Source: Halorhabdus rudnickae (GTDB lineage Archaea > Halobacteriota > Halobacteria > Halobacteriales > Haloarculaceae). Taken from it: 64,000 nt of DNA. The stretch spans positions 310,001-374,000 of the forward strand of contig NZ_CAAHFB010000001.1 of the NCBI RefSeq assembly GCF_900880625.1, read 5' to 3'. Both the position numbers and the translations under genes were made by a program. Shown piece after piece: positions 1-21,629 of this stretch (position 1 is the stretch's first letter; each line of letters opens with the position of its first letter). Under the pieces are notes generated by a model. It saw nothing but the letters and a program-made list of their open reading frames with translations. It was not told where the DNA came from and did not search any database.

Positions 1-847
1 CCTCCATCTCCGACGGGTCCATCATCGCTCCGTCGGTTCCGCCGAAGACGAGCAATCCTGCCCCAAGCAGGAAGGCCGCACCCACGGCACCGACTGCTCC
101 GAGCGCCCATGTTTCGACAGTCGCGTAGGCGACCCAGATACTGTACGCGAGGAAAGCGAACAGTACTGCGACCCCGACTCTGAGTTCCTCGACGGAGAAC
201 GCGATCGTGTCGTCTTCGTTGTCCGTCTCTCTGCTGGAAGCTGTCTGTCCTTCCCGCTCGCTCGGTGGATCTCCATCGGATCTCGTCGCGTCAATGACGT
301 TCCAGAGTTCGTTCACGACGAACAGGCTGAGCGGAACGAGACCGAGAAGGAGGAACCCAGTCTGCGTGCTGGAGAACATGATGACTCGACCGATCTGGGG
401 GATGATCAGCAGGTAGCCACCGATCGACACTACCTTGCCGACCAGCCGACTCGGCTCGACCAGATCCGGATCAGGATTCTCGTTGTTGTCCCCGGCGGTC
501 CGGAAGGCGACGCTACCGTCGCGGTCGACGATATCGACGACACGATGCGTGGTTGGTGACGACTCGCCGCCACGTCGGAAAGTGATGACATCCCCGACCT
601 GCACGTCTGCAGCCGGAACGCTCCCGACGACGATCACGTCTCCCGGTCCGATCGTCGGTGACATGCTTCCCGAGAGGACGACGTAACTCTGGTTGCCGCC
701 GACCAGTTGCGGGAACGCGTATACAACGAACGGCAGTACGACGACGACAAGGACGACGACCGCGAGGACGCTCGCGATCCGACGCCACGGGATGCGTCGG
801 TACAGTGGGGTCGCTTCACTGTCCGCCAGTTCCGCGTCCTCGGTCAT
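1..847 (-). CDS. SipW-type (ER-type) signal peptidase I, partial at window edge
   Basis: Membrane signal peptidase that should remove the signal peptides of the neighbouring TasA-like proteins. About 282 residues are visible and no stop codon is reached, so the C-terminus is outside the window. Visible features: an N-terminal membrane segment (about residues 25-45), the catalytic serine motif SGSMSPTIGPGD, and a THRVVDI motif with histidine where bacterial type I peptidases have lysine, which is typical of ER/SipW-type enzymes. Further membrane segments follow. The ATG overlaps the stop of the upstream substrate gene (ATGA), so the two are translationally coupled. Specificity for the neighbours is inferred from this context. 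Confidence 0.88.
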   Translation of the reverse strand, partial: MTEDAELADSEATPLYRRIPWRRIASVLAVVVLVVVVLPFVVYAFPQLVGGNQSYVVLSGSMSPTIGPGDVIVVGSVPAADVQVGDVITFRRGGESSPTTHRVVDIVDRDGSVAFRTAGDNNENPDPDLVEPSRLVGKVVSIGGYLLIIPQIGRVIMFSSTQTGFLLLGLVPLSLFVVNELWNVIDATRSDGDPPSEREGQTASSRETDNEDDTIAFSVEELRVGVAVLFAFLAYSIWVAYATVETWALGAVGAVGAAFLLGAGLLVFGGTDGAMMDPSEME

Positions 848-1842
848 GACGAACACCCCTTGTCATCCAACGTCGCCTCTCCGTCCTCGATCTCGTATTT
901 CAAACCGCAGGTCCCCGGACAGGGCGTCGAGGTCGACCGAGGCGGAGTGGTCCCCGGGAACGTCGATCCGTCATGGGCGTAGGTCCGTCCGCCGGTCGTC
1001 GTCCGAAAGATCGAGCCCGTCGGATCCTCGAAGACACGTAGTTCAGTCCCGTACTTGAGCAGGACCGTTTCGAGTGACGATGGAGCATCGATCAAGTGTA
1101 ATGTATCGCCGTCGACCTCGAAATCGAGCCCATCCGATCGGAGGGTCTCTCCCTCCGCCGCACAGAAAGACACCCAGCTGATATCTCTGCCGGGCCCTTC
1201 CGATTCCCCACAAGAGCCGCCAGTCGAGACGAACGGACTCGATCGTCCGTCGTTGCTCCGACACTGTTGGCCGACGAACTCGAGAGCGAAGCCGGATGCG
1301 ATCTCGCCGCTGAAGGTCTCCGCTAGCGTCCAAGACAGTTCTAGGCAAAGTCGATCGTCTGTACCCAGACAGGACCGTCCAGTCGTTCTCGGATCACCGT
1401 CGATCGCGAGCCCGCCAGCGAGAGCCGCCGCGAACTCATCGAAAGTGTCCCCGGAAGCGACGACGGTCTGTGGCTCTCCACTGTCACAGTCCACGTACGA
1501 CAGCGTCACAGCGAGTGCAGACGCGAGGGCGTCGTCGAGACAGGACGTTGTCCCCCAGACGTATGCGGGATTACTCGTCGCCGGCAGCGAAAGGGAGAGG
1601 CGCTCGCTACCGTTCCGGTCGTCCGCCGAGAGATCGATGTCGATCATTGCCGAGCCCCTCGAGTGCGTCCCGCTTTCCGTCTCGATCTGAAGGTCGAGAA
1701 CCCCCGCAGCAAGAGTGTTCGAGGGGGTCAGTTGGTCGTCATTGAGAAGGGCACTGCTACCGAGACCGAGCGTGACGCCGCTCGCACCAACAGTCCCGAT
1801 ACCGGCTAGTATTTGCCGGCGACTCACTTGACGGTCATCCAT
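844..1842 (-). CDS. SipW-type signal peptide protein, probable small TasA-like surface subunit
   Basis: Exported protein of about 332 residues beginning MDDRQVSRRQILAGIG, a SipW-type signal peptide with a basic start and a short hydrophobic core. The mature region opens with a degenerate form of the TasA/camelysin pattern (SNTLAAGVLDLQI), and a GQQCRSNDG motif matches the QCRHN motif of both large neighbours. I chose ATG 1842 over the upstream in-frame GTG at 1857 because a purine-rich GGGTGGGA lies just before it. The gene overlaps the signal peptidase gene by 4 bases. Likely a structural subunit or partner of the vWA proteins. Fibre formation is inference from TasA relatives. Confidence 0.72.
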   Translation of the reverse strand: MDDRQVSRRQILAGIGTVGASGVTLGLGSSALLNDDQLTPSNTLAAGVLDLQIETESGTHSRGSAMIDIDLSADDRNGSERLSLSLPATSNPAYVWGTTSCLDDALASALAVTLSYVDCDSGEPQTVVASGDTFDEFAAALAGGLAIDGDPRTTGRSCLGTDDRLCLELSWTLAETFSGEIASGFALEFVGQQCRSNDGRSSPFVSTGGSCGESEGPGRDISWVSFCAAEGETLRSDGLDFEVDGDTLHLIDAPSSLETVLLKYGTELRVFEDPTGSIFRTTTGGRTYAHDGSTFPGTTPPRSTSTPCPGTCGLKYEIEDGEATLDDKGCSS

Positions 1843-1914
1843 CCGTCCCACCCCCACAGGTGTGACAGGTCTCCTGCCTGCCCCCCACCTGTTTGGTATT
1901 ATCTACCATGGAAA

Positions 1915-1930
1915 AGCAGGTATATAGTTC
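1915..1930 (-). promoter_or_regulatory. Candidate TATA box for the SipW substrate/peptidase pair
   Basis: The minus strand reads AACTATATACC about 80 bases upstream of ATG 1842, inside the 392-base gap between this gene and the vWA gene. The gap otherwise holds no convincing ORF. The element would give the substrate-peptidase pair its own promoter rather than read-through from the vWA genes. TATA resemblance only. Confidence 0.35.
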
Positions 1931-2234
1931 TATGATCTCCCTCGATATTTGCTGGGTTTTCGTAGGCATCCGTTCTCCTGTTGACGCTGACAGCCCGGTT
2001 AGCTGAACGATCGGGTGCAACTGTTGGCCGCTACGATCCCGGACAGTCGGCGCTCTATCGTGGGTCGATACGTCGCTCGTGGCAGGGAAACCGTCCTCGC
2101 TCGACCGTCGGTTCGTGGCAGTTATCACGGGTCTTTACCGTCGTGATCGGCGTTCGTGGGTATCGCTCGGTCATCACAACCTCCGGACTGTGGGGCGACC
2201 ATCGAAACCCGTTCGGTGCGTCCCGAGAGTAGCG

Positions 2235-3944
2235 TCATGTGGTACTCAGCCCGGACCCGTCGTTGTGCCGGCACTGTTCGGTGTAGAACCCGAGATCGAA
2301 GCTCACGGAGTCACTCTGGACCTCGTTGCCGACGTCGCTCGGCAGCCACCACCCGAACCCGACGTAGTGATTGACCCCAGGTTGGAAACACTCGCGATTC
2401 TCGCTGTCGCCGGGACCGGAGAGCTCGTCGAAGTCCGTTTCGGGATCGGCATCGAGTGGGATACCGTTCCCCGATGACAGCGCGTCCAGGTCATCCCCGA
2501 GCGTGCCACGGCGAAACACCTCCTCCGGCATGGCGACCGCTTCGAGGATGGCGTTCTGGAGATCCGAGACCATCTCAGAATCGTCCGCACTGAAGTAGTC
2601 GGCCGGATCCCCGGAGATCTCGTCCCGGAGGTACGTCGAGAGGAGCGCCACGCCAGGTTCACCCTCACGGCCCGTGGGATCCTTATCGGCATCGATACCG
2701 ACCGTCAGGATGTTGTGATTGTCCCGGATTGCGCCGGCGACGGCCGCCGTCTCGTCCATCTCGCTTTGGTCGACGGTCGAGTTCGGATTCGCGCCCGTGT
2801 ACCCGCTGCCGGCCGAGTAGCCGCCCGCCTCGTAGGTCCGGTTCTCGTAGTTCGGCCCACCGTCTGTGAACAGGACAATGAACGTTTCCGCTCCTGTCCG
2901 ACCGTTTGCGTCGAGTTCTGCAGCCGCGATATCAAGGGCGGCGGGCATCGGCGTATCGCCGTTTGCCGTCAGCCCCGAGAACGTGACGGGGCCATCCGCC
3001 AGCGCGGTGAAGTCTTCGATCGACCCGCCACCGAAGCTCAGCCCGCCCACACGGGCGTCGGCACTGGTTTCGAGATCGCTCGCGAGGCCGTTGGCGGCGT
3101 CCTCAAGGTCACTCACCTCCGATCCCGACAGCGAACCAGACGTGTCGACCGCCACCATCACGTCGATTGCACCGATCGACGAGTCGACAACGTTGTTGCC
3201 GTTGGTGTCGTACCACCAGACAGTCTGGATGTTCTCGGCGAGTTCGGCCATCTCGGCGGTATCGTCGACGTCCGTCTCCGGTTCGGTCAGCCCGTTCTCC
3301 GACTCCGTGACGTTCCCTGCCTGCAACCACACGTAACCGGCGTTGTCACAGAGGTGGAAACTCAACGTGAGTTCGCCGAAGTCACCCGGCTTGACGTCCT
3401 CGAGGTTGATGAGCGGCTGGACTGGATCATCCGCTCTTTCGTTGTACGTGTCCCCGTTCGTCGTCCGGAGGCCCTCGATAGGGTCTAACTGGGTATCGAC
3501 GTCGGCCCCGTCCCGACAGGGCGCGTACTCGAAGTTGAGTTCCCCCTCGCTCTCAAGACGCATCTCTTGGACGCCGTCGCCGTTCGGGTCCGGGAACGAC
3601 TCGATAGCCGTGTTGTCCATGTACTGTGACAGGTCGTCCTCGTGGACCCAAACGACCGGATCCTCGGGATCCGGGAGTCCGACGTATGCCTCGGCGTCCT
3701 CGGTCGGTTCAGTGCGGCTGATCCCGGAATCGAGTCCCGCGTCGGCCTCGCCGTCCTGAAAGGAGTAGTGTTCCTCCCAGTCGACTTTCAGGTCCAGGCT
3801 CCCGGCGGTCAGCGTGTTGTCTTTGAACGATTCAGTGTCGTTGAAGTACGCTGTCGTACCGAACCCGGCGCCTGTACCCGCGAGGCCGATGGTCCCCAAC
3901 CCCGCGAGCACTTTCCGCCGGGACAGTTCGTATCGTTCCGTCAT
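2235..3944 (-). CDS. TasA-like surface protein with inserted von Willebrand A domain (paralogue 1)
   Basis: Secreted protein of 569 residues. The SipW-type signal (SRRKVLAGLGTIGLAG) leads into the TasA hallmark TTAYFNDTE...NTLTAGSLDLKV. A first TasA-like half ends near FHLCDNAGYVWL. A vWA domain follows with the metal-binding MIDAS motif VDTSGSLSG (about residues 265-275) and a later FTDGGPN. The TasA-like fold resumes near the C-terminus with SFDLGFYTEQCRHN. The vWA domain therefore appears inserted into the TasA-like domain. vWA domains usually mediate metal-dependent adhesion. No C-terminal sorting motif is visible. The paralogue lies immediately upstream. Confidence 0.8.
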   Translation of the reverse strand: MTERYELSRRKVLAGLGTIGLAGTGAGFGTTAYFNDTESFKDNTLTAGSLDLKVDWEEHYSFQDGEADAGLDSGISRTEPTEDAEAYVGLPDPEDPVVWVHEDDLSQYMDNTAIESFPDPNGDGVQEMRLESEGELNFEYAPCRDGADVDTQLDPIEGLRTTNGDTYNERADDPVQPLINLEDVKPGDFGELTLSFHLCDNAGYVWLQAGNVTESENGLTEPETDVDDTAEMAELAENIQTVWWYDTNGNNVVDSSIGAIDVMVAVDTSGSLSGSEVSDLEDAANGLASDLETSADARVGGLSFGGGSIEDFTALADGPVTFSGLTANGDTPMPAALDIAAAELDANGRTGAETFIVLFTDGGPNYENRTYEAGGYSAGSGYTGANPNSTVDQSEMDETAAVAGAIRDNHNILTVGIDADKDPTGREGEPGVALLSTYLRDEISGDPADYFSADDSEMVSDLQNAILEAVAMPEEVFRRGTLGDDLDALSSGNGIPLDADPETDFDELSGPGDSENRECFQPGVNHYVGFGWWLPSDVGNEVQSDSVSFDLGFYTEQCRHNDGSGLSTT

Positions 3945-4083
3945 TGTGTGTCCCCCACCTTAGGGAGAACTCGCCGGCGGAGTCGAACCGCCGAGTAATG
4001 ATCGCCCCCGAGACGATCACCCACTCCCGTGCGAGTCAGTCCGTGATTCGATCGACTATTGTGTCGTCGTCTCAGTCGGGCGT

Positions 4084-5976
4084 TTAGCTCGGCGTGTCGG
4101 TCGCTGTTTCAGTTGCCGTGTCGGTCGCTGTTTCCGTTGCCGTGTCGGTCGCTGTTTCCGTTGCCGTGTCGGTCGCCGTCTCAGAGCTCATGCCACCGCC
4201 GGTGTTGTGCCGGCACTGTTCGGTGTAGAACCCGAGGTCGAAGCTCACGGAGTCCGTCTGGATTTCGTTGGCGTGATCGACTGGCAGCCACCACGCGAGT
4301 CCGACGGCGTTCGTCGTGCTGGGGACGAAACAGTCCCTCGCATCCGCGTCGTGGTCGCTCGGATCCTCGTCGTTCAGTCCGTCACCCGGGACCTCATCGA
4401 ACGCATTGGTGCGGTTGCCGTCCAACGGGATACCGTCGCTCCCCATACCGAGTTCGTTCAGCAGTTCGCGCAAAGATCCCTGGAAGAACGGCTTCTCGCC
4501 GGAGATCGACTTCGCGATCTGGCTGAAGATGTCGAACAGCTCGCTCTGGGCGCCGATGAAAGATTGCCCGTCGCTCGTGGCCATGTAATCGAGCAGCGCG
4601 GCGTTGGTCGACCCGAGAGAGACGTCGCCGAACCCGACGGTGTACATCGTGACGTCGTGGACGCTCTCTTTCAGGAGTTCGGCGTTGTCCGCAGGGTTGG
4701 CCGCTCCGAACGCGTTATTGAAATCGGTCGACGAGCTGTCGGTGTTGTCGTCGTGACTGGGGTCAGAGAGGTTTTGATTCTCGTAGCCCTCATTCGGCGA
4801 GCCGTCCGTGAGGAGCACGACGATCGGCTGGGCACTGCTACGATGGTTCCCGCTGGCGGAATATGTCGGAGTAATGTCGTGCCCGTCGAGTTCCTCGTGA
4901 GCGATGTCGATGGCTTGCTCGATGTTCGTCCCGCCGCCCGAAGACAGGTTGTTCACGGCGTCTCGCGCGTCCTGTTTGGTACCCGTCAGCGGCTGATCCA
5001 TTGACGCCTGGTCGGCGAACGAAACGACGGAGATCTGGGCGTTGGATCCGACTGTATCGATCAAGTTGATCGCCGCGCTTTGAGCGGCTGAGAGTCCGCC
5101 GCCGCTCATCGAACCCGAGCGATCCAAGACGAGCACGATGTCGGCCTCGCTAGCCTCGCCGCTCGGCTCATAGACGTTGTCACCGTCCTCGTCGTACCAC
5201 AGCATCGTCTGGATCTCGTCGACGAGTTCGACGTCGTTACCGGTCGAGTTCGACGTGTTCGGTCCACCCTCTTCGTCCGGGTCGTTTGCCTCGGGTTCGG
5301 TATGTCCGTTTTCGGCCGCCTCGATCAGATCACCAGTGAGCCAGACGTACCCGGGGTTGTCACACAGATGGAAGCTAAGCGTGAGTTCCCCGAAGTCGCC
5401 GGGCTTGAGGTCCCCCAGGCTCACGAGCGGTTTTGGTTCCGCGTCTTCGTCTTCTTCCAGTGGCCAGTTCGCGACCGTATCTCTGTTGAGCGAACGCAGC
5501 TCCCGACCGCCGTCGGGGTCGAGGTCCTCCGGCGTCTGGGCGAAGTCCTCACAGGGAACGTAGTTGAGGTCTTCAGCCTCAGTCGTGTCGCCGTAGAGCA
5601 CTTCATCTTGAATCGCGTTGTTGTCGTCGTCCGGGTACGCCTCGATCGACGTCCTCTCCATGAACGACCCAAGATCCTCAGTCGCGACCCACACAGACGG
5701 ACTCTCCGGGTTGGGAAGGCCGACGTAGTCTGTTTCCTCGTCTTCCGATGGTTCGTCGTACCACACGTCGACGCCGTCGGCGTCCATGCCGTCGTAGTAG
5801 TGCTCCTCCCAGTCAACCGTCAGGTCGAGTGAACCCGCGGTCAGCGTGTTGTTCTCGTAGGTCTCTTCGTCACTGAAGTACGCTGTCGTACCGAACCCGG
5901 CGCCTGCACCCGCGAGGCCGATGGTCCCCAACCCCGCGAGCACTTTCCGCCGGGACAGTTCGTATCGTTCTGACAT
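4084..5976 (-). CDS. TasA-like surface protein with inserted von Willebrand A domain and Thr-rich tail (paralogue 2)
   Basis: Secreted protein of 630 residues with the same plan as its neighbour: SipW-type signal, TTAYFSDEE...NTLTAGSLDLTV, a first half ending FHLCDNPGYVWL, a vWA domain with a canonical MIDAS LDRSGSMSGGG and LLTDGSPN, then SFDLGFYTEQCRHN. It adds a C-terminal tail of ETATDTAT repeats, probably an extended and possibly O-glycosylated stalk. I start at the ATG giving MSERYELSRRK; the longer reading frame to 6039 adds 21 residues that do not fit a signal peptide. The upstream gap to 6298 holds the divergent promoters. Adhesion or matrix function is inferred from domain content. 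Confidence 0.8.
   Translation of the reverse strand: MSERYELSRRKVLAGLGTIGLAGAGAGFGTTAYFSDEETYENNTLTAGSLDLTVDWEEHYYDGMDADGVDVWYDEPSEDEETDYVGLPNPESPSVWVATEDLGSFMERTSIEAYPDDDNNAIQDEVLYGDTTEAEDLNYVPCEDFAQTPEDLDPDGGRELRSLNRDTVANWPLEEDEDAEPKPLVSLGDLKPGDFGELTLSFHLCDNPGYVWLTGDLIEAAENGHTEPEANDPDEEGGPNTSNSTGNDVELVDEIQTMLWYDEDGDNVYEPSGEASEADIVLVLDRSGSMSGGGLSAAQSAAINLIDTVGSNAQISVVSFADQASMDQPLTGTKQDARDAVNNLSSGGGTNIEQAIDIAHEELDGHDITPTYSASGNHRSSAQPIVVLLTDGSPNEGYENQNLSDPSHDDNTDSSSTDFNNAFGAANPADNAELLKESVHDVTMYTVGFGDVSLGSTNAALLDYMATSDGQSFIGAQSELFDIFSQIAKSISGEKPFFQGSLRELLNELGMGSDGIPLDGNRTNAFDEVPGDGLNDEDPSDHDADARDCFVPSTTNAVGLAWWLPVDHANEIQTDSVSFDLGFYTEQCRHNTGGGMSSETATDTATETATDTATETATDTATETATDTPS
4094..4183. repeat. 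24-bp tandem repeat coding Thr-rich tail
   Basis: Three consecutive 24-base units (starting at 4094, 4118 and 4142) are identical except for one base, and a partial, diverged fourth begins at 4166. On the minus strand they encode ETATDTAT units. The near identity at DNA level points to recent slippage expansion. Confidence 0.9.
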
Positions 5977-6297
5977 AGTTTTCCTGTTCGTCCCGCCCAC
6001 CCCAGGACGGAGCGAACGTAACACAACCCATGTTCTCATCCCTCATAGCTAATCGCCGGATCGTCCGGACAGAATCGAACGTTTGAGGGCCTTAACGACC
6101 CGTTTGTATCGCCAGTCCCGTCTCACACTCGGCCTCAATGACCGATTGAACAACGGGAGAACAGTTTCGACCCGCAGGCGTCTCCTACTAATGAAATGTC
6201 ATCCAAACTATCAGGGGTTTTAATACACTAGACTATCCCTCTTTGCGTTGAGCCTCACTCGAGTGGAGGTGGAGTGAGTCACTGGGAGTGGGACACC

Positions 6298-12720: not shown

Positions 12721-14724
12721 ATGAGCGAGCGAGCGGGCTCGCGGGTCGTCCTCCGAGTTGGCGAGAACCCGGCTGACGAGCCGTTCCCCGAAGAGGCGCT
12801 GTGCGAGGTTGCGGAGAACGTCGTCGTCGAGACCGAACGGGACTTCACGGCGGCGCTGGATCGGATCGAGTCCGGCGACGTCGACTGTGTGGTCGCCGAT
12901 CACGGATCCGGGTTCGACGGGATTTCTTTGCTCGAGAGCGTCCGCCGGACTCGCCCCGCCTTCCCGGTCATTGTACTCCCCGAAACGGTCGATGGCGATG
13001 TGAGTCGCCGGGCCGTCCGGGCCGACGCGACCGCCTTCGTTCCCCAGTCGGTCGAGAACTTCTCGGCGGCCGTCCGCGAGGAGTTGGTGGACGTGGTCCC
13101 AGTTCGCCAGGGGGATCGGGTGCGAATGCCGATCCACGACCGGACGGCGACCGAGGAACAGCGACTCAAGGAACGTGCCCTCGACGAGGCGCCGGTCGGC
13201 ATCACGATCGCCGACGCGACCGAGCCCGACGATCCGCTGATCTACGTCAACGACTCCTTCGAGGAAGTGACCGGCTACGAAAAAGAGGAGGCGATCGGCG
13301 TCAACTGTCGGTTCCTACAGGGCGAGGACACCGACGCTGAAACGGTCGCCGAGGTCCGTGAGGCTGTCGACAACGAGCAATCGGTGGCTGTCGAGTTACT
13401 GAACTACCGACCCGACGGGTCGACCTTCTGGAACAATCTGGCGATATCACCCATCCGCGACGACGAAGGCGCGGTGACGAACTACGTCGCATTCCAGCAG
13501 GACATTACCGAACGCAAGGAGGCCGAGGCCGCCATCAGAGAGGAACGCAAGCGTCTCGAACGCGTCCTTGATCGGGTCGAAGGCCTCGTCAGTGACCTCA
13601 CTGAGGTCCTTGTCCGGGCCGACGATCGGCCGGAAATTCATCGGCTGGCAGTCGATCGCTTCAACTCGGGGACGGAGTTCGACCAGGCCTGGATCGGCGA
13701 GTACGATCCAACTTCTAAGACGGTCACGATCGCAGAGTACATCGACTGCAGCCGCGATCCGATGACGATCGACATAGACGACGATCTGCCAGAGACGTCT
13801 GCACTCGCCCGGGCGATCGAAACAGGCAAGATACAGACCCTCTCGGCTGGCTCGGTCCCAGGGTCGTGGACCGACGAAACCGAGTACGCTGGTGGGGGCG
13901 TCGCGATCCCCTTGACGTATCGACGGACGACCTACGGTGTCCTGGCGGTCTTCGATACCGATGCCGACGCGTTCGACGAGACCGAACAGACGATCCTCGG
14001 GGCGCTTGGCCGGGTCATCGGATCGGCTATCAACGATGTCCTCAGCAAGCGGACCGTCACGGCAGACGTTACGATCGCCATTGAAGTGGAACTGTCGGAC
14101 TCGTCGCTGTTCCTGCTCGATCTGGCCGGCCGAGCCACGGAGGAGTTAGATTATCGCGGAATCCACGTCGGGGACGACGGGGCTGTTCGATTCCTGCTAG
14201 CCGTCGATACGGCCGACGAGGCGATCCTGCTTTCGGCACCCGACCGCTACGACGCCGTGACCGATGTCTCAGTGCTGTCGAACACTGACGGCGAACGCGT
14301 CCTCGAGTTAGTCGCACAGGGCGCGCCATTCGTCGATGCGCTTGCGACGTACGGCGCAGCGATCGAATCGGTTTCGATCGGCCAGTCGGGCGTGCAGTTG
14401 CGATTCCGGGTCGGGACCGAACAGAACGGCCGGGCCATCGTCGAGGAACTCGAAGCGATCTACGAAAGCGTCGAACTGCTCGCCTATCACGAAACGGAGA
14501 ACGAGGCGACGTCACCGCAGGCCTTCAGAGCCGCCGTCGAATCCGACCTGACCGATCGGCAACTCACGGCGCTCCGGACAGCATACGCCAGTGGTTTCTT
14601 CGAGTGGCCACGCGAGAGCGATGGCGATGATCTCGCCGACGCAATGGATGTCGTCCCCTCGACGTACTACCAGCATCTCCGCTCGGCCGAAAAGAAACTC
14701 GTCAGCGCCTTCTTCGAATCCTGA
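12721..14724 (+). CDS. bat: Bat-like transcription regulator: receiver-like, LOV/PAS, GAF and HTH_10 domains
   Basis: Regulator of 667 residues resembling bacterio-opsin activator Bat. Order: a receiver-like domain (about 10-120, with VVADHGSGFDG), a PAS domain (about 150-265), a GAF domain (about 285-450) and a C-terminal Bat-type helix-turn-helix (DLTDRQLTALRTAYASGFFE, then MDVVPSTYYQHLRSAEKKL). The PAS domain carries the LOV signature GVNCRFLQGEDTD with the flavin-adduct cysteine at about residue 196, plus NYRPDGSTFWNN and VAFQQDITE. It should therefore bind FMN and sense blue light. It lies between the desaturase and crtY, and bop is nearby. Control of these genes is inferred from Bat in Halobacterium. 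Confidence 0.87.
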   Translation: MSERAGSRVVLRVGENPADEPFPEEALCEVAENVVVETERDFTAALDRIESGDVDCVVADHGSGFDGISLLESVRRTRPAFPVIVLPETVDGDVSRRAVRADATAFVPQSVENFSAAVREELVDVVPVRQGDRVRMPIHDRTATEEQRLKERALDEAPVGITIADATEPDDPLIYVNDSFEEVTGYEKEEAIGVNCRFLQGEDTDAETVAEVREAVDNEQSVAVELLNYRPDGSTFWNNLAISPIRDDEGAVTNYVAFQQDITERKEAEAAIREERKRLERVLDRVEGLVSDLTEVLVRADDRPEIHRLAVDRFNSGTEFDQAWIGEYDPTSKTVTIAEYIDCSRDPMTIDIDDDLPETSALARAIETGKIQTLSAGSVPGSWTDETEYAGGGVAIPLTYRRTTYGVLAVFDTDADAFDETEQTILGALGRVIGSAINDVLSKRTVTADVTIAIEVELSDSSLFLLDLAGRATEELDYRGIHVGDDGAVRFLLAVDTADEAILLSAPDRYDAVTDVSVLSNTDGERVLELVAQGAPFVDALATYGAAIESVSIGQSGVQLRFRVGTEQNGRAIVEELEAIYESVELLAYHETENEATSPQAFRAAVESDLTDRQLTALRTAYASGFFEWPRESDGDDLADAMDVVPSTYYQHLRSAEKKLVSAFFES

Positions 14725-14914
14725 GTGGAAGTCCAGCCACCCGAGAACCGCTAGGCGCTCGACATTCCCCAACAGAATAGGTACGGCTTTGAGTCGGCTC
14801 CCCCTCCTACTATCAAAGAATGATCGACGGGACCGGAGCGGATCGGCAGCGACAACTGCGTAAGTGTCAGGGGGACGCCATCAGTCGCGATGGTCCCTCC
14901 CGTCTCTGAGGAGA
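14725..14914. other. 190-base gap between bat and crtY
   Basis: No credible ORF. On the minus strand 14768-14782 reads ACCTATTCTGTTGGG, matching all seven fixed positions of the Bat upstream consensus ACCnnACTnnTTnGG as I recall it. It is inverted relative to crtY and 133 bases from its start. About eight chance matches to those seven bases are expected in a window of this size, so this is weak. Confidence 0.35.
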
Positions 14915-15679
14915 ATGATAGAACCCATCAGCTATCTCGCCTTCGTACTCGCGTTCGTGGCCGCTCCGGTTCTCGTGGTAGCTGGGGCACTGCTCGTGAC
15001 CAAGCGATGGCACCGAGCACAGTTGTTCGGAGCGGGATTGTTGGTCGCCGTCGCGCTAACTTACACGCTGCCGTGGGACGACTATCTGATCCGGAGCGGC
15101 GTCTGGGAATACGGATCGACGCTCGTCGGCCGCGTGGGCGTCGTCCCCTACGAGGAGTTGCTGTTCGTCGCCGCCCAGACGGTCCTGACGGGCTTGTGGA
15201 CCACGCTCGTCGTTCGCCCGGACGGGTGCGGCCCGTCGGTCACCCGCCGACAGCGACTCGGTGGCGTCGCCGCGGGCCTGCTGGTGGGCGTCGCCGGGCT
15301 CGCATTGCTGTCGATCCCCTCGTCGCTGTACTTGGGGGCGATTCTCGCGTGGTCGGCCCCCGTCTTCGCCCTCCAGTGGGGCTTTGGCTGGCCGGTGCTC
15401 GTCCGCGCTCGCCGCTCTGTCGTCTTCGCGCTCGCGGTCCCGACGGCGTATCTCTGGGCCGTCGACAGACTGGCGATCGGGATCGGCCTGTGGACCTTCT
15501 CGGCCGAGCGCACGACAGGCATTGCACTTCTAGGATTGCCGATCGAGGAGGCGCTGTTTTTCCTCGTGACGAACGCCTTCCTCGTTCAGGGGCTGGTCCT
15601 GCTCGGGTGGGTCGTCGAACGCGACGTGTTGCCTTCCGTCGCCGACGCGATCCGGGACCTTCCGAGTCTGGTGGATTGA
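14915..15679 (+). CDS. crtY: Lycopene beta-cyclase (CrtYcd-type, membrane)
   Basis: Converts lycopene to beta-carotene, the substrate of Brp/Blh. 254 residues, almost entirely hydrophobic helices. It has two homologous halves, each with the PxEE signature (VPYEELLFV and LPIEEALFFLVTN), as in fused archaeal heterodimer-type cyclases. I start at ATG 14915 (MIEPISYLAF) because GAGGAGA lies immediately upstream and the longer frame adds a non-conserved basic stretch. Its neighbours brp, the CrtI-family gene and bat support the assignment. Confidence 0.92.
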   Translation: MIEPISYLAFVLAFVAAPVLVVAGALLVTKRWHRAQLFGAGLLVAVALTYTLPWDDYLIRSGVWEYGSTLVGRVGVVPYEELLFVAAQTVLTGLWTTLVVRPDGCGPSVTRRQRLGGVAAGLLVGVAGLALLSIPSSLYLGAILAWSAPVFALQWGFGWPVLVRARRSVVFALAVPTAYLWAVDRLAIGIGLWTFSAERTTGIALLGLPIEEALFFLVTNAFLVQGLVLLGWVVERDVLPSVADAIRDLPSLVD

Positions 15680-15708
15680 TCGACAATCGACCCAACCGGG
15701 CAGGGCAG

Positions 15709-15822
15709 TCAGTCGTCTCCGGGGACGGCGTCTCCGGGCGGTTCCTGTACGTAGGCACGACGAGCGGTGAGGACGTACGCGGTCGTCGCGACGGCGATGA
15801 ACCCCGCAGCCAGGACGGACCT
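15709..15822 (-). pseudogene. 3' end of an MFS transporter gene, stranded by the island
   Basis: The minus strand encodes about 35 residues that look like the last membrane helix and tail of a transporter: VLAAGFIAVATTAYVLTARR followed by AYVQEPPGDAVPGDD and a stop at 15709. Upstream the frame runs into a TAA at about 15848. The matching N-terminal part lies at 16943-17670 on the same strand, beyond the Fic island, which suggests one gene split in two. Confidence 0.6.
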
Positions 15823-15986
15823 TCTCGAAGCTGGGGCGTCAGACCCTTACCGACGACTGTGCATTAGTCTTGTTTTCATTTCTGCTGTAGCAATCAAACC
15901 GTGTTCGGCAGTCGGTTGTCAAATGCCAATAGTTGACGGCCCATTCGGCCTACTATAGTGTGGTAGGACGTGGAGAGGACGGGTGA

Positions 15987-15996
15987 TTTAAATAAA
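15987..15996 (+). promoter_or_regulatory. TATA box of the Fic/Doc gene
   Basis: TTTAAATAAA lies 33-42 bases before ATG 16029, a strong TATA-like element at promoter distance. Confidence 0.55.
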
Positions 15997-16028
15997 CCCT
16001 CGAAAATCATAGAATACTCAGTGACTCG

Positions 16029-16424
16029 ATGACCACAGATGACGATCTTCCAACTGTCGAGGAAATCTATACTATTCATGATGAAATCATCCACATATAT
16101 GACCTGAAACACCCCGGCGTCCGTGATCGATTTGCCGACGAAAAGCTAGCACAATTAATCGAAGAAGCACGGGAATACGACGACGACTTTCAAAGGGCAG
16201 CAGTAATCTTGCGGAAACTCCCCTCGCTTCATGTGTTTGAGGATGGAAACAAGCGGACGGCTTTCCTTGTTGTCGTTGAATACCTTGATAGACGAAATCT
16301 TGAACCCGCGAAAAGTGGGGACATAGTTGAGCGTGTTATGAAGTGCCGGAAGCGATATTCTGTGGAAGAAATAGCGCGGTGGTTAGAGGATGGATCCATT
16401 GATGAAGATAAGCTCCGGCAATGA
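16029..16424 (+). CDS. Fic/Doc family protein, probable toxin
   Basis: 131 residues, close to the length of Doc (death-on-curing) toxins. The active-site motif HVFEDGNKRTAF starts at His68 and resembles the Doc form HxFxDxNKR more than the AMP-transferring Fic form HPFxxGNGR. Doc phosphorylates EF-Tu; Fic enzymes usually AMPylate. Which reaction applies here is not decided by the motif. No Phd-like antitoxin precedes it. A 37-codon ORF downstream is the only candidate partner. Low GC and its place in a disrupted gene point to horizontal acquisition. Confidence 0.85.
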   Translation: MTTDDDLPTVEEIYTIHDEIIHIYDLKHPGVRDRFADEKLAQLIEEAREYDDDFQRAAVILRKLPSLHVFEDGNKRTAFLVVVEYLDRRNLEPAKSGDIVERVMKCRKRYSVEEIARWLEDGSIDEDKLRQ

Positions 16425-16520
16425 AAAATACACTAGTGATTTCATTCGGTACATTTTCGGTAGGAATAGAGTACATAGATTGAAGTACATCCGTCTACAT
16501 AATCCCACTAAGGACGAATA

Positions 16521-16555
16521 TCCCAATAGGGGAGAGTATCACCCACTTATTGGGA
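16521..16555. repeat. 8-bp inverted repeat before the small island ORF
   Basis: TCCCAATA (16521-16528) and TATTGGGA (16548-16555) form a perfect inverted repeat ending 10 bases before ATG 16566. The position suits an operator or an mRNA hairpin controlling the small ORF. Confidence 0.5.
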
Positions 16556-16565
16556 GGAAGAACAT

Positions 16566-16679
16566 ATGAACGAAAAAGAAGCACAAAAAAGGGCCGATGG
16601 TGGACCGAAGGCTGCCTATCGAAAGCGGGTGCGTGACCTGATTTCGAAGCACAAAGACACTCTTGATCTTCTTGAATAG
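16566..16679 (+). CDS. 37-residue basic ORF, possible partner of Fic/Doc
   Basis: ATG 16566 to TAG 16679 encodes a short, charged peptide starting MNEKEAQKRADGG and ending HKDTLDLLE. It is rich in Lys and Arg, unusual in this acidic proteome. GGGAGGAAG lies about 5-10 bases upstream as a possible ribosome binding site. It is 141 bases downstream of the Fic gene. I do not recognise the family. An antitoxin role is only a guess from position. Confidence 0.4.
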   Translation: MNEKEAQKRADGGPKAAYRKRVRDLISKHKDTLDLLE

Positions 16680-16942
16680 CTGTTTCACCCCCATTTAACC
16701 GCCCTCTTGTTGCTGTGTAGTATTAACAGCCTATGACGGCTATTACCGGAGATCGGTAAACTGCCCTTACGCGACAACGGTTATTGCTCATGCGTGAGTC
16801 TGTTTTCTGTCAAATTCCACGGGTATGTGGGATGTTTCAAAATCTATTAGAAGACAGATATTGGTAACGCCGATATTACGCTGTCTTGCGATTCGCCACA
16901 ATCCGCTATGGGGAAAATAAAGATAATTTGAATACTGGGGTA
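16680..16942. other. 263-base noncoding end of the island
   Basis: AT-rich, with no credible ORF. It ends where coding sequence of the broken MFS gene begins. No terminal repeat or insertion-sequence end recognised. Confidence 0.5.
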
Positions 16943-17670
16943 TCAATGACTGCCATCTTCCCGAAGCGGAACGCGAAGCGAAAGCCGACCAACGCCCGGA
17001 GCGTCGGCAGGTTCAACAGCGACCGGAAGGCGTCAATGCCGCCCGTCTCTTCGGGCGCCGTCTGTCCCCCAGGATCGTCACGCAGGAACAGGGCGACGAG
17101 CAGGAACGAGCCGAGCGTGATCGCGGTCAACACCAGGTACGGCACGGTGAACCCGTAGGCGTACAGGAGATAGCCGCCCACGAGGTCGCCGAGCAGCGAG
17201 GAGAACGACGCGACCTGGTTGTACGAACCTAGCCAGAGACCCTGCTCTGCATCGGGACTGATCTCTCCGACGATCGTCGCACCGGTGATCCAGAGGACGC
17301 TGGCTCCAAGCCTCTGGATCATCCGGAACAGGATGACGTGGACCGCGCTGTCTGCGACGATGAATCCGACGAAGACGGCGACATTGATCAGGAAGCCGGT
17401 CAGCAGATACCGCTTCGCGTTGCCGGTATCGACGTATCTCCCGAACGGGAGGACGACCAGCAACTGGACGACCGCAAAGGCCGTCCCGAAAAGCCCTTCG
17501 ACGAACCCGGTCGTCTCGAAGAGATCGACGTACAGCGCCAGGGCGATCAGGATCGTCGAGTACGCCTGACTCCGGGCGAAGGCCGTGCCCGCAAGCGCGA
17601 GGAACTCTCTATCCCCGAGCAATTCGATCGATCGAAACCGTGTCACAGGAGCCAGTTCCCGCAAGTCCAC
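16943..17670 (-). pseudogene. 5' part of an MFS transporter gene, truncated by the island
   Basis: About 242 residues of a major facilitator superfamily transporter: SIELLGDREFLALAGTAFAR, LLVVLPFGRYVDTGNAKRYL (the loop 2-3 motif), then helices up to the interdomain linker and FRFAFRFGKMAV. After that the frame enters island DNA and stops at 16906 with unrelated residues. MFS proteins need about 12 helices; only about 6-7 remain. The GTG start at 17670 is uncertain. The stranded last helix is at 15709-15822. About 150 codons of the second half seem lost. Confidence 0.78.
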
Positions 17671-17738
17671 GCGGGAGGAAAATCTCTCGACTCTTACTCA
17701 CTGGCGAAGTGGTGGGAAAAAGTAGTCGGGCGTCCTCG

Positions 17739-18515
17739 TCAGTCAGCCGGTTGTGCCGACGTGCTGCCGGTCGAGACAGCGCCGTCGTCGAGGACGCTGT
17801 GGCTCCGCAGCAGGATGACCCCGAAGATCACCTTCGCGGTCACGTCGAGCACGGCGAAGCCGGCGGTCTCTGGGCCGATCCCGATGACGCCGAGGCCTTC
17901 GGTGCCGACGATCCACCAGACCGGGTACACCAGCCAGAGGACGGCGATCATGTTCCGGAGAAGCTCGAACGTACTCCTGGTGTCGGGCGACAACTCCGCC
18001 GCTCTCGCCGTCAGCGTCGAGAACAGGACATACAGCAACACCAACAGGAAGCCGGTGGAGACGCCCCACCAGAGGATACGGACGCCCCCGACGCCCATCC
18101 CGGCTGCACCGCTGAACGTCAGGGTCGCGACCGCGCCGGTGAGGATCATCAACACGTCGAGTCCGACGAGCGTCCCGGTCGTGTTGCGGTCAGCGCCCGC
18201 GAGTAGCGCGATGTCGTACAGCAACAGCGGCGTCGTCAGGATCCAGTCGGTGTATCGCGGCCAGTAAATCTCCTCGGGAACACCGTTGAGTTCCGTCCCG
18301 AGGATGTTCTCGACGACTTCGATCGGGAGCTTCCCGAAACCCGTTGCCATCGCCAGGTAGTTGACGAAGGCGATCGCCGCGATGAACGTCGTCACGACGT
18401 AGAACTTCTTTCGCCGGGAATCCCGTACGTTCCATCCTGTCGCGATGAAGTACAGCATTCCCAGGAACATTCCTGCCGTGCCTGCCCACAGCGATATCGT
18501 GGTTAGGTTTGCCAT
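17739..18515 (-). CDS. bop: Bacteriorhodopsin, light-driven proton pump
   Basis: Seven-helix retinal protein of 258 residues. Helix C reads [22 protein letters not shown], giving Arg87, Asp90 and Asp101, which match Arg82, Asp85 (acceptor) and Asp96 (donor) of bacteriorhodopsin. The release glutamates are present in GTEG and PET (Glu194/Glu204 equivalents). Helix [16 protein letters not shown] places the retinal lysine at 228. This residue set marks an outward proton pump rather than a chloride pump or sensor. Its neighbours supply retinal (brp, crtY) and control (bat). A Bat-type upstream sequence precedes it. Confidence 0.95.
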
Positions 18516-18542
18516 GCTACAGGTTAGGACTTGGCTCGGAAC

Positions 18543-18573
18543 TCGGGTAACGGTCGTACCAAATCTATTCGGT
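18543..18573 (-). promoter_or_regulatory. Candidate Bat-type upstream activating sequence and TATA of bop
   Basis: On the minus strand 18573-18559 reads ACCGAATAGATTTGG, matching every fixed position of the Halobacterium bop UAS consensus ACCnnactnnTTnGG (as I recall it). It sits 44-58 bases before the bop ATG, just upstream of a weak TATA-like GTTACC near -30. That is the published arrangement of the bop promoter. Confidence 0.55.
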
Positions 18574-18647
18574 AATACATGCCGCTATCCGTCGAGTGAG
18601 AGACGTACCGACAGGGTTTCACCGATCCGGGCCGTGGAGTATCTCGA

Positions 18648-21629
18648 ATGAGCAAGGACGTCATCGAGGTCCGCGGGGCCGAACAGCACAACCTCAAGGA
18701 CGTCGATTGTGAGATCCCACGCGAGGAACTGACGGTCGTCACCGGCCTCTCGGGGTCGGGCAAATCCTCGCTCGCCTTCGAGACGATCTACGCCGAGGGC
18801 CAGCGACGGTACATCGAATCGCTGTCGGCCTACGCGCGGAACTTTCTCGGACAGATGGACAAACCACAGGTCGAGTCGGTCGAAGGACTCTCGCCTGCGA
18901 TCTCGATCGACCAGAAAAACGCCGCCAACAACCCTCGTTCGACGGTCGGGACGGTCACGGAACTGCACGACTATCTCCGGCTCCTCTACGCTCGCGTCGG
19001 GACGCCACACTGTCCGGAGTGTGGCCGCGAGGTCGGCGAACAGAGCGCCGAGAACATGGTTTCGCGGATCCTCGAACTCCCGGCGGATACGAAACTGAAG
19101 ATCGCCGCGCCGATCGTCCGCGATCAGAAGGGGGCCTTCGAGGACCGTTTCGACGAACTCGTCGGCGAGGGCTACAGCCGCGTCGAGGTCGACGGCGAGG
19201 CGTACGATCTGACGCTCGATCGCCCCGATCTCGACGAGAACTACGATCACACGATCGACGTGATCGTCGACCGGGTGCAGGTCGCCCCGGACGCTCGCTC
19301 GCGGGTCACCGACTCCGTCGAGACCGCTCTCGAAGAGGCCCACGGCGTGCTCAAGGTCATCGTCCCCGATCCCCCCGAAGGAGCGGAGTTAGGCGGTGCA
19401 ACGGCCCGCTCGACCGGAGATCTGGCCGACGGGGCAGACGGCGACGACGGCGACGGAGACAGCGACGAGGATCGGCTCGTCGTCGAGTTCTCCGAGGATC
19501 TGGCCTGCACGCACTGCGGGATCGACATCAGCGAGATCGAGACCCGGAGCTTCTCCTTTAACTCCCCGCACGGCGCCTGTCCGGAATGTGAGGGACTGGG
19601 CGAAACCAAAGAGGTCAGCGAGGATCTGGTGATCACCGATCCCGCCAAGCCGCTGAAGCACGTCTTCGAACCCTGGAGTTACAACCGGACGTACTACTCC
19701 CGGCAACTCGACAACGTCGCCGAACACTTCGGCGTCGACCTAGAGACGCCCTTCGAGGACCTGGATCCGGAGATCCAGCGCCAGTTCCTCTATGGTACCG
19801 ACGATCGGGTTCACTTCCAGTGGCAGACCAAGAACGGCACCCGCGAGAAGACCGAGCGCTTCGAGGGCGTCATCCCGAACCTCGAACGCCGCCACGTGGA
19901 GACGGACTCCGACCGCGCCCGCGAGCACATCGAGGAGTTCATGGCCACGACCACGTGCCCGAACTGCGAGGGCACCCGGTTGAAGGCCGAATCGCGGGCC
20001 GTCCTCGTCGAAGGCACATCCATCACCGACGTCAACGAGATGTCGATCGGCGACGCCCTGGACCTCTTCGAGGGCATGGAAGACGGGATGAGCGAACGGG
20101 ACGCCACTATTGCCACGGAGATATTGAAGGAGATCCGCGCCAGGCTCGGGTTCATGCAGGAGGTCGGCCTGGAGTATCTGACGCTCGACCGTGAGGCCGC
20201 GACGCTGTCGGGCGGCGAGAGCCAGCGGATCCGGTTGGCGACTCAGATCGGATCGGGGCTCGTTGGCGTCCTCTACGTTCTGGACGAACCTTCGATCGGC
20301 CTCCACCAGCGGGACAACGATCGCCTGCTGAACACCCTGGCGGAGCTCAGAGACCTCGGTAATACGTTGCTCGTGGTCGAGCACGACACCGAGACGATGC
20401 GCCGGGCGGACAACATCGTCGACATGGGTCCCGGCCCGGGCAAGCGCGGCGGCGAGATCGTCGTCAACGGCCCCGTCGAGGACGTCCTCGACAGCGACGA
20501 ATCGGTCACCGGCGAGTACCTGGCGGGCGAACGGACGATTCCGGTTCCAGACGAACGCCGGGACCCCGCAGGCACGCTGACGATCCGGGGTGCTCGCCAG
20601 CACAACCTGGCGGACCTCGAGGTGGACATCCCGCTGGGGACGTTCACCGCCATCACCGGCGTCTCGGGGTCCGGGAAGTCGACGCTGATGCACGACGTCC
20701 TCTATAAGGGCCTGGTGCGCGAGATGAACGACAACCGGAGCGTCAACCCGGGCGAACACGACGCCATCGAGGGGATCGACGAGATCGAGACGGTTCGGCT
20801 GATCGATCAGTCGCCGATCGGTCGGACGCCCCGATCCAATCCCGCAACCTACACGGACGTCTTCGATCACATCCGGGAGCTGTTCGCCGAGACCAAACTG
20901 TCGAAACAGCGGGGCTACGAGAAGGGCCGGTTCTCGTTCAACGTCAAGGGCGGTCGGTGTGAGGCCTGCGGCGGGCAAGGCACCGTCACTATCGACATGA
21001 ACTTCCTCAGCGACGTCGAGGTGCCCTGTGAGGAGTGTGGCGGTGACCGGTACAACGCCGAGACTCTGGATGTCACGTACAAAGACCGAACGATCGCGGA
21101 CGTCCTCGAGATGACCGTCGCGGAGGCCCGCGAGTTTTTCGAGGGCCATCCAGGAATCCGCCGACGGCTGGAGCTTCTGGAGGACGTCGGCCTCGGCTAC
21201 ATGAAACTCGGTCAGCCGTCGACGACGCTCTCGGGCGGGGAGGCCCAGCGCGTGAAACTCGCCGAGGAACTCGGCAAGAAGGACTCCGGCGAGACGCTGT
21301 ATCTCCTCGACGAGCCGACGACCGGGCTCCACCCCGAGGACGAACGCAAGTTGATCGACGTGCTGCACCGGCTCACCGACGATGGAAACACGGTCGTCGT
21401 CATCGAGCACGAACTCGATCTCGTGAAGAACGCCGATCGGATCATCGACCTCGGGCCGGAGGGCGGCGAAAACGGTGGGACGATCGTCGCTGCCGGGACA
21501 CCGGAAGCAGTCGCCCGGACGGACGAATCCTACACCGGCCAGTACCTGCGTGACCTCTTGCCGGAGATCGAGATGGAGGGACCGCGAGCCGATCGCGAAC
21601 TCGCCGCCCCGCCCGCGGCCGACGACTGA
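18648..21629 (+). CDS. uvrA: Excinuclease ABC subunit A
   Basis: DNA-damage recognition ATPase of nucleotide excision repair, working with UvrB and UvrC in the cytoplasm. 993 residues. Two ABC modules are visible: Walker [13 protein letters not shown] and [11 protein letters not shown], signature motifs [16 protein letters not shown] and [16 protein letters not shown]. The zinc modules CPECG...CTHCG...CPECEGLG and CEACGGQG...[10 protein letters not shown] are complete. A short acidic insert ([14 protein letters not shown]) near residue 265 is a haloarchaeal adaptation. It is divergent from bop with a 132-base shared gap. Confidence 0.97.

Follow-up and report, generated by a model that had tools for sequence, protein, structure and literature searches.

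On balance, we think it probable that one end of the window (the whole 64,000-nt stretch analyzed, C1:310001-374000 of a 3.36-Mb genome) encodes a SipW-dependent surface-protein array built on a single TasA-like jelly-roll shell, whose subunits would form fibers that display adhesive domains and whose RNA would be cut at a tRNA-like element between the genes. By computation we found the gene set, the shell, the point at which a vWA domain is inserted into it, the MIDAS motif of that domain and a conserved linkage to SipW; fiber formation, adhesion and RNA cleavage are steps that we infer.

The cluster lies on the minus strand and, from 5' to 3', consists of P0002 (4084..5976, 630 aa), a gap of ~140 nt, P0001 (2235..3944, 569 aa), a gap of ~390 nt, P0003 (844..1842, 332 aa) and P0004 (1..847), a SipW-type signal peptidase of the Ser/His, archaeal/ER type whose start is overlapped by P0003. 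P0002, the first gene of the array, and P0001 both encode a SipW-signal, TasA-like shell with an inserted vWA domain and are 41% identical along their length, while P0003 combines a short shell-like N-terminal domain with a Cys-containing C-terminal region. The C-terminal part of P0004 continues past the window; the full ORF (~352 aa) extends 211-212 nt over the edge, to L006:11789. A small Ser/Thr-rich ORF (L006:11347-11796, minus strand) immediately to the left of the window has a SipW-like start, GTYGFLTDSES, overlaps the SipW stop and has no family in Pfam.

The first-pass annotation had placed three SipW-signal substrates and a SipW-type peptidase in one minus-strand cluster at 1-6039. 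All of these genes are present, and P0001 and P0002 pass TIGR04088 (cognate_SipW) with 23.6 and 26 bits (cut-off 19). P0003, however, has no Pfam or NCBIfam match and is tied to the shell solely through the profile built here (aligned at 4-72 and 113-200). The upper boundary also needs adjustment: P0002 likely begins at MSERYELSRR (5976), and 6039 is the start only of a longer mechanical ORF. P0001 and P0002 pass the cut-off of Pfam Peptidase_M73 (PF12389) in its N-terminal part only (positions 4-49 of 196; 25.7 bits for P0002), and neither matches that profile at full length. Pfam VWA (cut-off 23.8) is matched weakly by P0001 (26.4 bits) and strongly by P0002 (64.7 bits, with 67 bits for VWA_2), and the MIDAS residues read from P0001 and P0002 are intact (DTSGS/T/D and DRSGS/T/D). 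P0004 passes TIGR02228 (sigpep_I_arch) with 100 bits (cut-off 51.85), contains the catalytic motifs SGSMSPT (Ser) and TTHRVV (His), and scores 93 bits against the Bacillus SipW equivalog model, under the cut-off of 190.

That the two large proteins are each one fold with an inserted vWA domain, as first proposed from the flanking patterns, is well supported. The start pattern AYF.D.E....NTLTAGSLDL and the end pattern NEVQSDSVSFDLGFYTEQCRHN do flank a complete MIDAS-bearing vWA domain in both P0001 and P0002. Because both patterns also recur in relatives that consist of the shell without vWA, their position on either side of the domain is not a matter of chance. These shell-only relatives (~270-300 aa), found in similar arrays of Halosimplex, Haloglomus, Halobacterium, Halorubrum, Haloarchaeobius and others, align with P0001 and P0002 at both ends: through the signal and AxFxDxESF...AGxLDL, VKPGD...DNPGYV and GELxxxI before the vWA site, and through W.xP..VGNeIQsDs..F.l.F..eQ.R.N past it.

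Structure prediction led to the same picture. In an AlphaFold2 model of P0001 (pLDDT 80.4, pTM 0.77), the shell has seven strands (52-61, 179-182, 189-198, 203-215, 240-245, 525-533 and 546-557), and the vWA domain (~260-471) interrupts their order between strands 5 and 6; a second, smaller insertion (~62-178) lies between strands 1 and 2. The model of a vWA-free relative (pLDDT 67.9) has seven strands in the order seen in P0001. Judging from this strand order, the pTM and the shell-only model, the two halves of the shell are predicted to pack as one sandwich. In P0002, the vWA domain (residues 277-477) falls between shell positions 182 and 240, and across a catalog of some 35 loci it mostly lies between shell positions 160-200 and 200-245.

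Compared by eye, other paralogs carry unrelated inserts at the vWA site. One of them (L042:830-2581) is DUF4394/DUF6923-like, below Pfam cut-offs, and for most of the non-vWA inserts Pfam recognized no family. Thus the scaffold seems to accept interchangeable inserts, and with other inserts at the same site in relatives, vWA-mediated adhesion would be just one use of it. In a separate observation, also made by eye, the loop insert of one shell protein (L050:6288-8300) contains an apparent second signal-like stretch and a long unnamed domain.

The pairing with a peptidase extends beyond the window, since a SipW homolog adjoins 15 of the 18 named haloarchaeal relatives; the remaining three loci are L037 (a 3-kb contig), L038 and L046 (where the array extends towards the limit of the DNA retrieved). 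P0003 homologs are close to SipW in several relatives. Arrays differ in gene number and inserts, and many contain shell-only genes alongside vWA genes. The array of this species includes no vWA-free shell gene, and P0001 and P0002 are the only strong matches to the shell profile in its genome. Of 242 sampled Halobacteria, 82 (from 38 of 73 genera) have shell proteins (E<=1e-20), yet none were found in five other genomes of the genus to which the window belongs, and so the locus is patchy.

Searches with the vWA-containing P0001 model were swamped by vWA folds, and we therefore examined the shell with a shell-only model. Against the PDB, the best Foldseek match of the vWA-free shell was the TasA fiber (8aur; probability 0.97), with a modest E of 7.5e-3; the remaining matches listed had probabilities of 0.57 or less, and TM-scores for the shell model were likewise modest (0.37-0.42). 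Likeness to TasA in sequence is weak beyond the N-terminus. An hhalign alignment to TasA (sequence checked against 8aur/5of1) was weak, with the KPGD motif aligned. When P0001, the shell profile or a TasA-like protein encoded in this genome was used to search PDB sequences, nothing useful came up; the marginal match was 'Pilin' 9p0a (E 0.095). The shell profile does align with the N-terminal region of a full-length camelysin/TasA-like protein located beside another SipW gene in this genome. Because the full-length family profile is not matched, we regard the shell proteins as a divergent relative of the TasA/camelysin family; they probably work like TasA. The two results that the first-pass annotation had named as counting against its view, predicted structures with no TasA-like jelly roll around the vWA domain and orthologs with no peptidase beside them, were not obtained, although the fold match to TasA is a modest one; the self-assembling, metal-dependent adhesive matrix that it went on to suggest is a possible role. 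The second SipW locus (L007:8903-11033; G000:C1 about 653.9-656.0 kb) encodes this 178-aa camelysin/TasA-like protein (PF12389, 43.7 bits) together with a SipW-type peptidase of 180 aa and a protein of 332 aa that weakly matches toastrack (DUF4097).

In some members of the array family the loop between strands 5 and 6 holds a vWA domain with an intact metal site; in others it holds another insert or none. We propose the following sequence of events. The proteins would be exported, possibly by Tat given the SRR in the signal, and trimmed by SipW, and the new N-terminus could then enter a neighboring subunit by donor-strand exchange to yield fibers on which the displayed inserts would serve in metal-dependent adhesion. 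In the account given in PMC9674648, assembly of TasA uses an N-terminal donor strand, and TapA is proposed as the source of the first one. Comparison with tapA-sipW-tasA suggests that P0003 may have the role of starting or anchoring the fiber. The N-terminal segment of P0001 that would serve as the donor is conserved and is disordered in the monomer model, which fits TasA-like donor-strand assembly.

Two other readings of the proteins have to be weighed. The vWA proteins might be minor tip adhesins on a shaft made of other, vWA-free shell proteins. With Foldseek, the best PDB matches of the whole P0001 model are vWA pilus tip adhesins (SpaC, PitA, RrgA and Mfa5), and the shell-only genes that stand beside vWA genes in many arrays could supply such a shaft. 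In this genome, however, there is no strong shell match other than P0001 and P0002, and the distant TasA-like protein at C1:653.9 kb would be left as the source of a shaft; we consider this arrangement rather unlikely. SpaC, RrgA, PitA and GBS104 resemble the proteins here in combining a MIDAS vWA domain with beta-sandwich domains on a surface polymer, but they are sortase-linked proteins of Gram-positive bacteria, whereas P0001 and P0002 use SipW and have no LPXTG-type sorting signal (P0001 ends in GSGLSTT and P0002 in Thr-rich repeats). The second reading, which we judge unlikely, is that the proteins do not polymerize but act as modular binding proteins, secreted or associated with the envelope, and have the SipW export route and a TasA-like fold in common. 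That fold and SipW processing are by themselves no proof of fibers, and the inserts are large and varied. On the other hand, the fold match is to the fiber form of TasA, no C-terminal anchor is evident in the P0001 and P0002 sequences, and the putative donor-strand segment shows the conservation and disorder noted above.

Between P0002 and P0001 lies a tRNA-like element (3969..4036, minus strand) that was absent from the first-pass annotation of the cluster. It reads ACTCGC, a middle hairpin, CGGCGG-TTCGACT-CCGCCG and GCGAGT, and is followed directly on its 3' side by a small hairpin, TCTCCC-taaggt-GGGGGA (3951..3968, minus strand), with the start codon 6 nt further on. R1, a model of the element, matches the window at 4036-3962 (38.2 bits, E 3e-5), its single match in this genome. 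The copies upstream of genes have a common design: an ACCCAC-like 5' strand, a linker of 8 nt upwards that sometimes contains a hairpin, CGGCGG-TTCGACT-CCGCCG, a GTGGGT-like 3' strand and, adjoining the start codon, a C-rich/G-rich hairpin, with the element mostly 22-36 nt before start codons. The two stacked helices total 12 bp, the T-loop is TTCGANT, and a small GG loop is often present. Twelve base pairs is the combined length of the acceptor and T stems of a tRNA, and the loop of the element follows the tRNA T-loop pattern.

Compensatory changes were found at 8 of 11 pairs among 72 distinct R1 matches (0 of 500 shuffles), an alignment that leans to the model, and these 72 sequences contained 45 doubly changed cells compared with a mean of 11 after shuffling. 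In 15 hand-picked sequences to which the model had not been fitted, double-sided changes were seen at 5 of 11 pairs. The covarying pairs include G-U steps. RNAalifold run without a given structure returned the same helices and a 2-bp stem with a GG loop, reminiscent of a D-arm. Folded singly, the window element gave a significant result (z -2.5 to -2.8) and three other copies a weak one, and the case for an RNA therefore rests on covariation. A first RNA alignment (A4) had misplaced the 5' helix in copies with short linkers, and A5 was used instead.

In the fetched arrays, 63 of 69 strong R1 matches precede a shell gene and 57 of 69 lie between two shell genes. The element precedes 45 of 84 internal genes compared with 8 of 51 first or after-gap genes (Fisher p 1e-5), a count that includes some wrongly set gene starts and thus understates the elements before internal genes. 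Among 242 genomes, 66 had both R1 matches and shell proteins, 17 had R1 matches only, 16 had shell proteins only and 143 had neither (p 7e-28), figures that ignore kinship and come from a search with stricter filters, an E limit that misses the window's own element and a model built on such loci.

The element is neither necessary for the shell-array system nor exclusive to it. Arrays L056, L062-L064 and L067 are largely without it. In 20 regions chosen around R1 matches, 28 downstream ORFs match the shell profile; the other ORFs encode DUF1102-like exported proteins, one of which matches DUF1102 below the cut-off, or are a few unrelated genes, and because some unrelated genes also follow the element we do not regard it as exclusive. 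In three loci (L072, L073 and L083, with R1 matches near 3209-4054, 4001-4047 and 13542-19014), the element stands before tandem DUF1102-like exported proteins (MKRR...GSGAFTSVxAxR), some of which carry beta-helix domains. The element thus marks a second, DUF1102-like family of haloarchaeal surface-protein arrays. Around 4001-5251 of L081, L082 and L089, R1 matches lie upstream of apparently non-exported genes, such as a glycosyltransferase-like ORF in L081.

Cleavage of polycistronic RNA by tRNA-processing enzymes would be the simplest reading of the element. We propose it because of the tRNA-like shape, the position and the known t-element of the Haloferax 5S rRNA. According to PMC4326828, both RNase P and tRNase Z act on the t-elements of Haloferax, and tRNase Z cuts one that precedes 5S rRNA. 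Here, tRNase Z and/or RNase P would most likely recognize the element and split the polycistronic RNA; every subunit mRNA would thereby gain a 5' end of its own ~25-30 nt before the start codon, and hence its own stability and dose. Acceptor-like and T-arm helices with a T-loop, the features that define a t-element, are present, as judged by covariation and T-loop conservation. More broadly, we tentatively suggest that haloarchaea cut long TasA-like subunit mRNAs at intergenic tRNA mimics, with tRNA-processing enzymes setting the dose, and that one scaffold shows interchangeable inserts along a surface fiber.

The element could instead act on translation, controlling, together with the adjacent hairpin, access of ribosomes to the internal genes. 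The C-rich/G-rich hairpin does follow the element next to the start codon, and the hairpin at 3951-3968 covers a G-rich stretch that may be a ribosome-binding site; hiding such a site, however, does not require a complete tRNA-like shape that includes a 12-bp helix and a T-loop. As the whole explanation this seems improbable to us, but such control may add to cleavage, and the two readings are compatible.

Even less probable is a recombination or integration site (attP/attC-like) at which gene cassettes are added. A tRNA-like sequence of halovirus HF2 is an attP (PMC8707807), and it shares with the element its tRNA-like DNA, a haloarchaeal context and weak tRNA-finder scores; gene number and inserts also vary between arrays. 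The HF2 attP, however, is a single site beside an integrase gene, whereas the element is repeated between genes, and no integrase was found near the arrays examined, the nearest match over the cut-off in this genome being ~80 kb off. Covariation that includes G-U steps and a fixed distance to the downstream start codon fit an RNA better. A blast search of one element against phages returned short matches only, to Halorubrum viruses (E 0.06).

A genuine tRNA-Pro gene is very improbable: ARAGORN calls tRNA-Pro(CGG) between the two vWA genes, but RF00005 finds 42 tRNAs in this genome and none at the element (nor did an Rfam search of the window match it at E<=1), the equivalent spot in relatives is labeled Pro, Ala, Gly or Arg or receives no call, and many copies are without the middle arm. 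tRNA finders would label 3967-4040 (minus strand) of the window tRNA-Pro and its counterparts in relatives Ala, Gly or Arg, labels that are probably false when they fall in haloarchaeal surface-protein arrays. This serves as a warning that elements of this kind can be annotated as tRNA genes.

Our literature search, which covered few subscription papers, found no account of haloarchaeal SipW/TasA-like vWA arrays or of such elements between protein genes. TasA-like matrix proteins and t-elements are known kinds; what appears to be new is their combination. With it, TasA-like matrix proteins come to include a modular scaffold in haloarchaea, a possible explanation of how these cells make surface or biofilm material, and tRNA-shaped RNA elements between protein genes would seem to be in wide use.

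With TasA-SipW-TapA of Bacillus subtilis and camelysin (PF12389), the array shares a SipW-type signal with an AxFxD...AGxLDL start, the KPGD motif, and an NxxQxDs..F..Q end, and its predicted jelly-roll shell has the TasA fiber as its best, though modest, PDB match; like TasA-SipW-TapA, it has a SipW of its own next to the genes, with another secreted partner adjoining SipW. It differs in the vWA domain between strands 5 and 6 and the further insertion between strands 1 and 2, in its long arrays of paralogs, in a signal that contains SRR and in a family sequence match confined to the N-terminus. The bundling pili of the archaeon Pyrobaculum (AbpA) have been reported to be TasA-like (cited in PMC9674648) and, likened by description alone, offer another TasA-like fiber protein in an archaeon; the passages on AbpA in that account mention no vWA insertion. 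Like the element here, the t-element that precedes the 5S rRNA of Haloferax volcanii is a haloarchaeal tRNA-like RNA set immediately before the RNA that is to be freed, whereas the element described here, for which cleavage is our proposal, lies between protein genes in repeated arrays of many genera.
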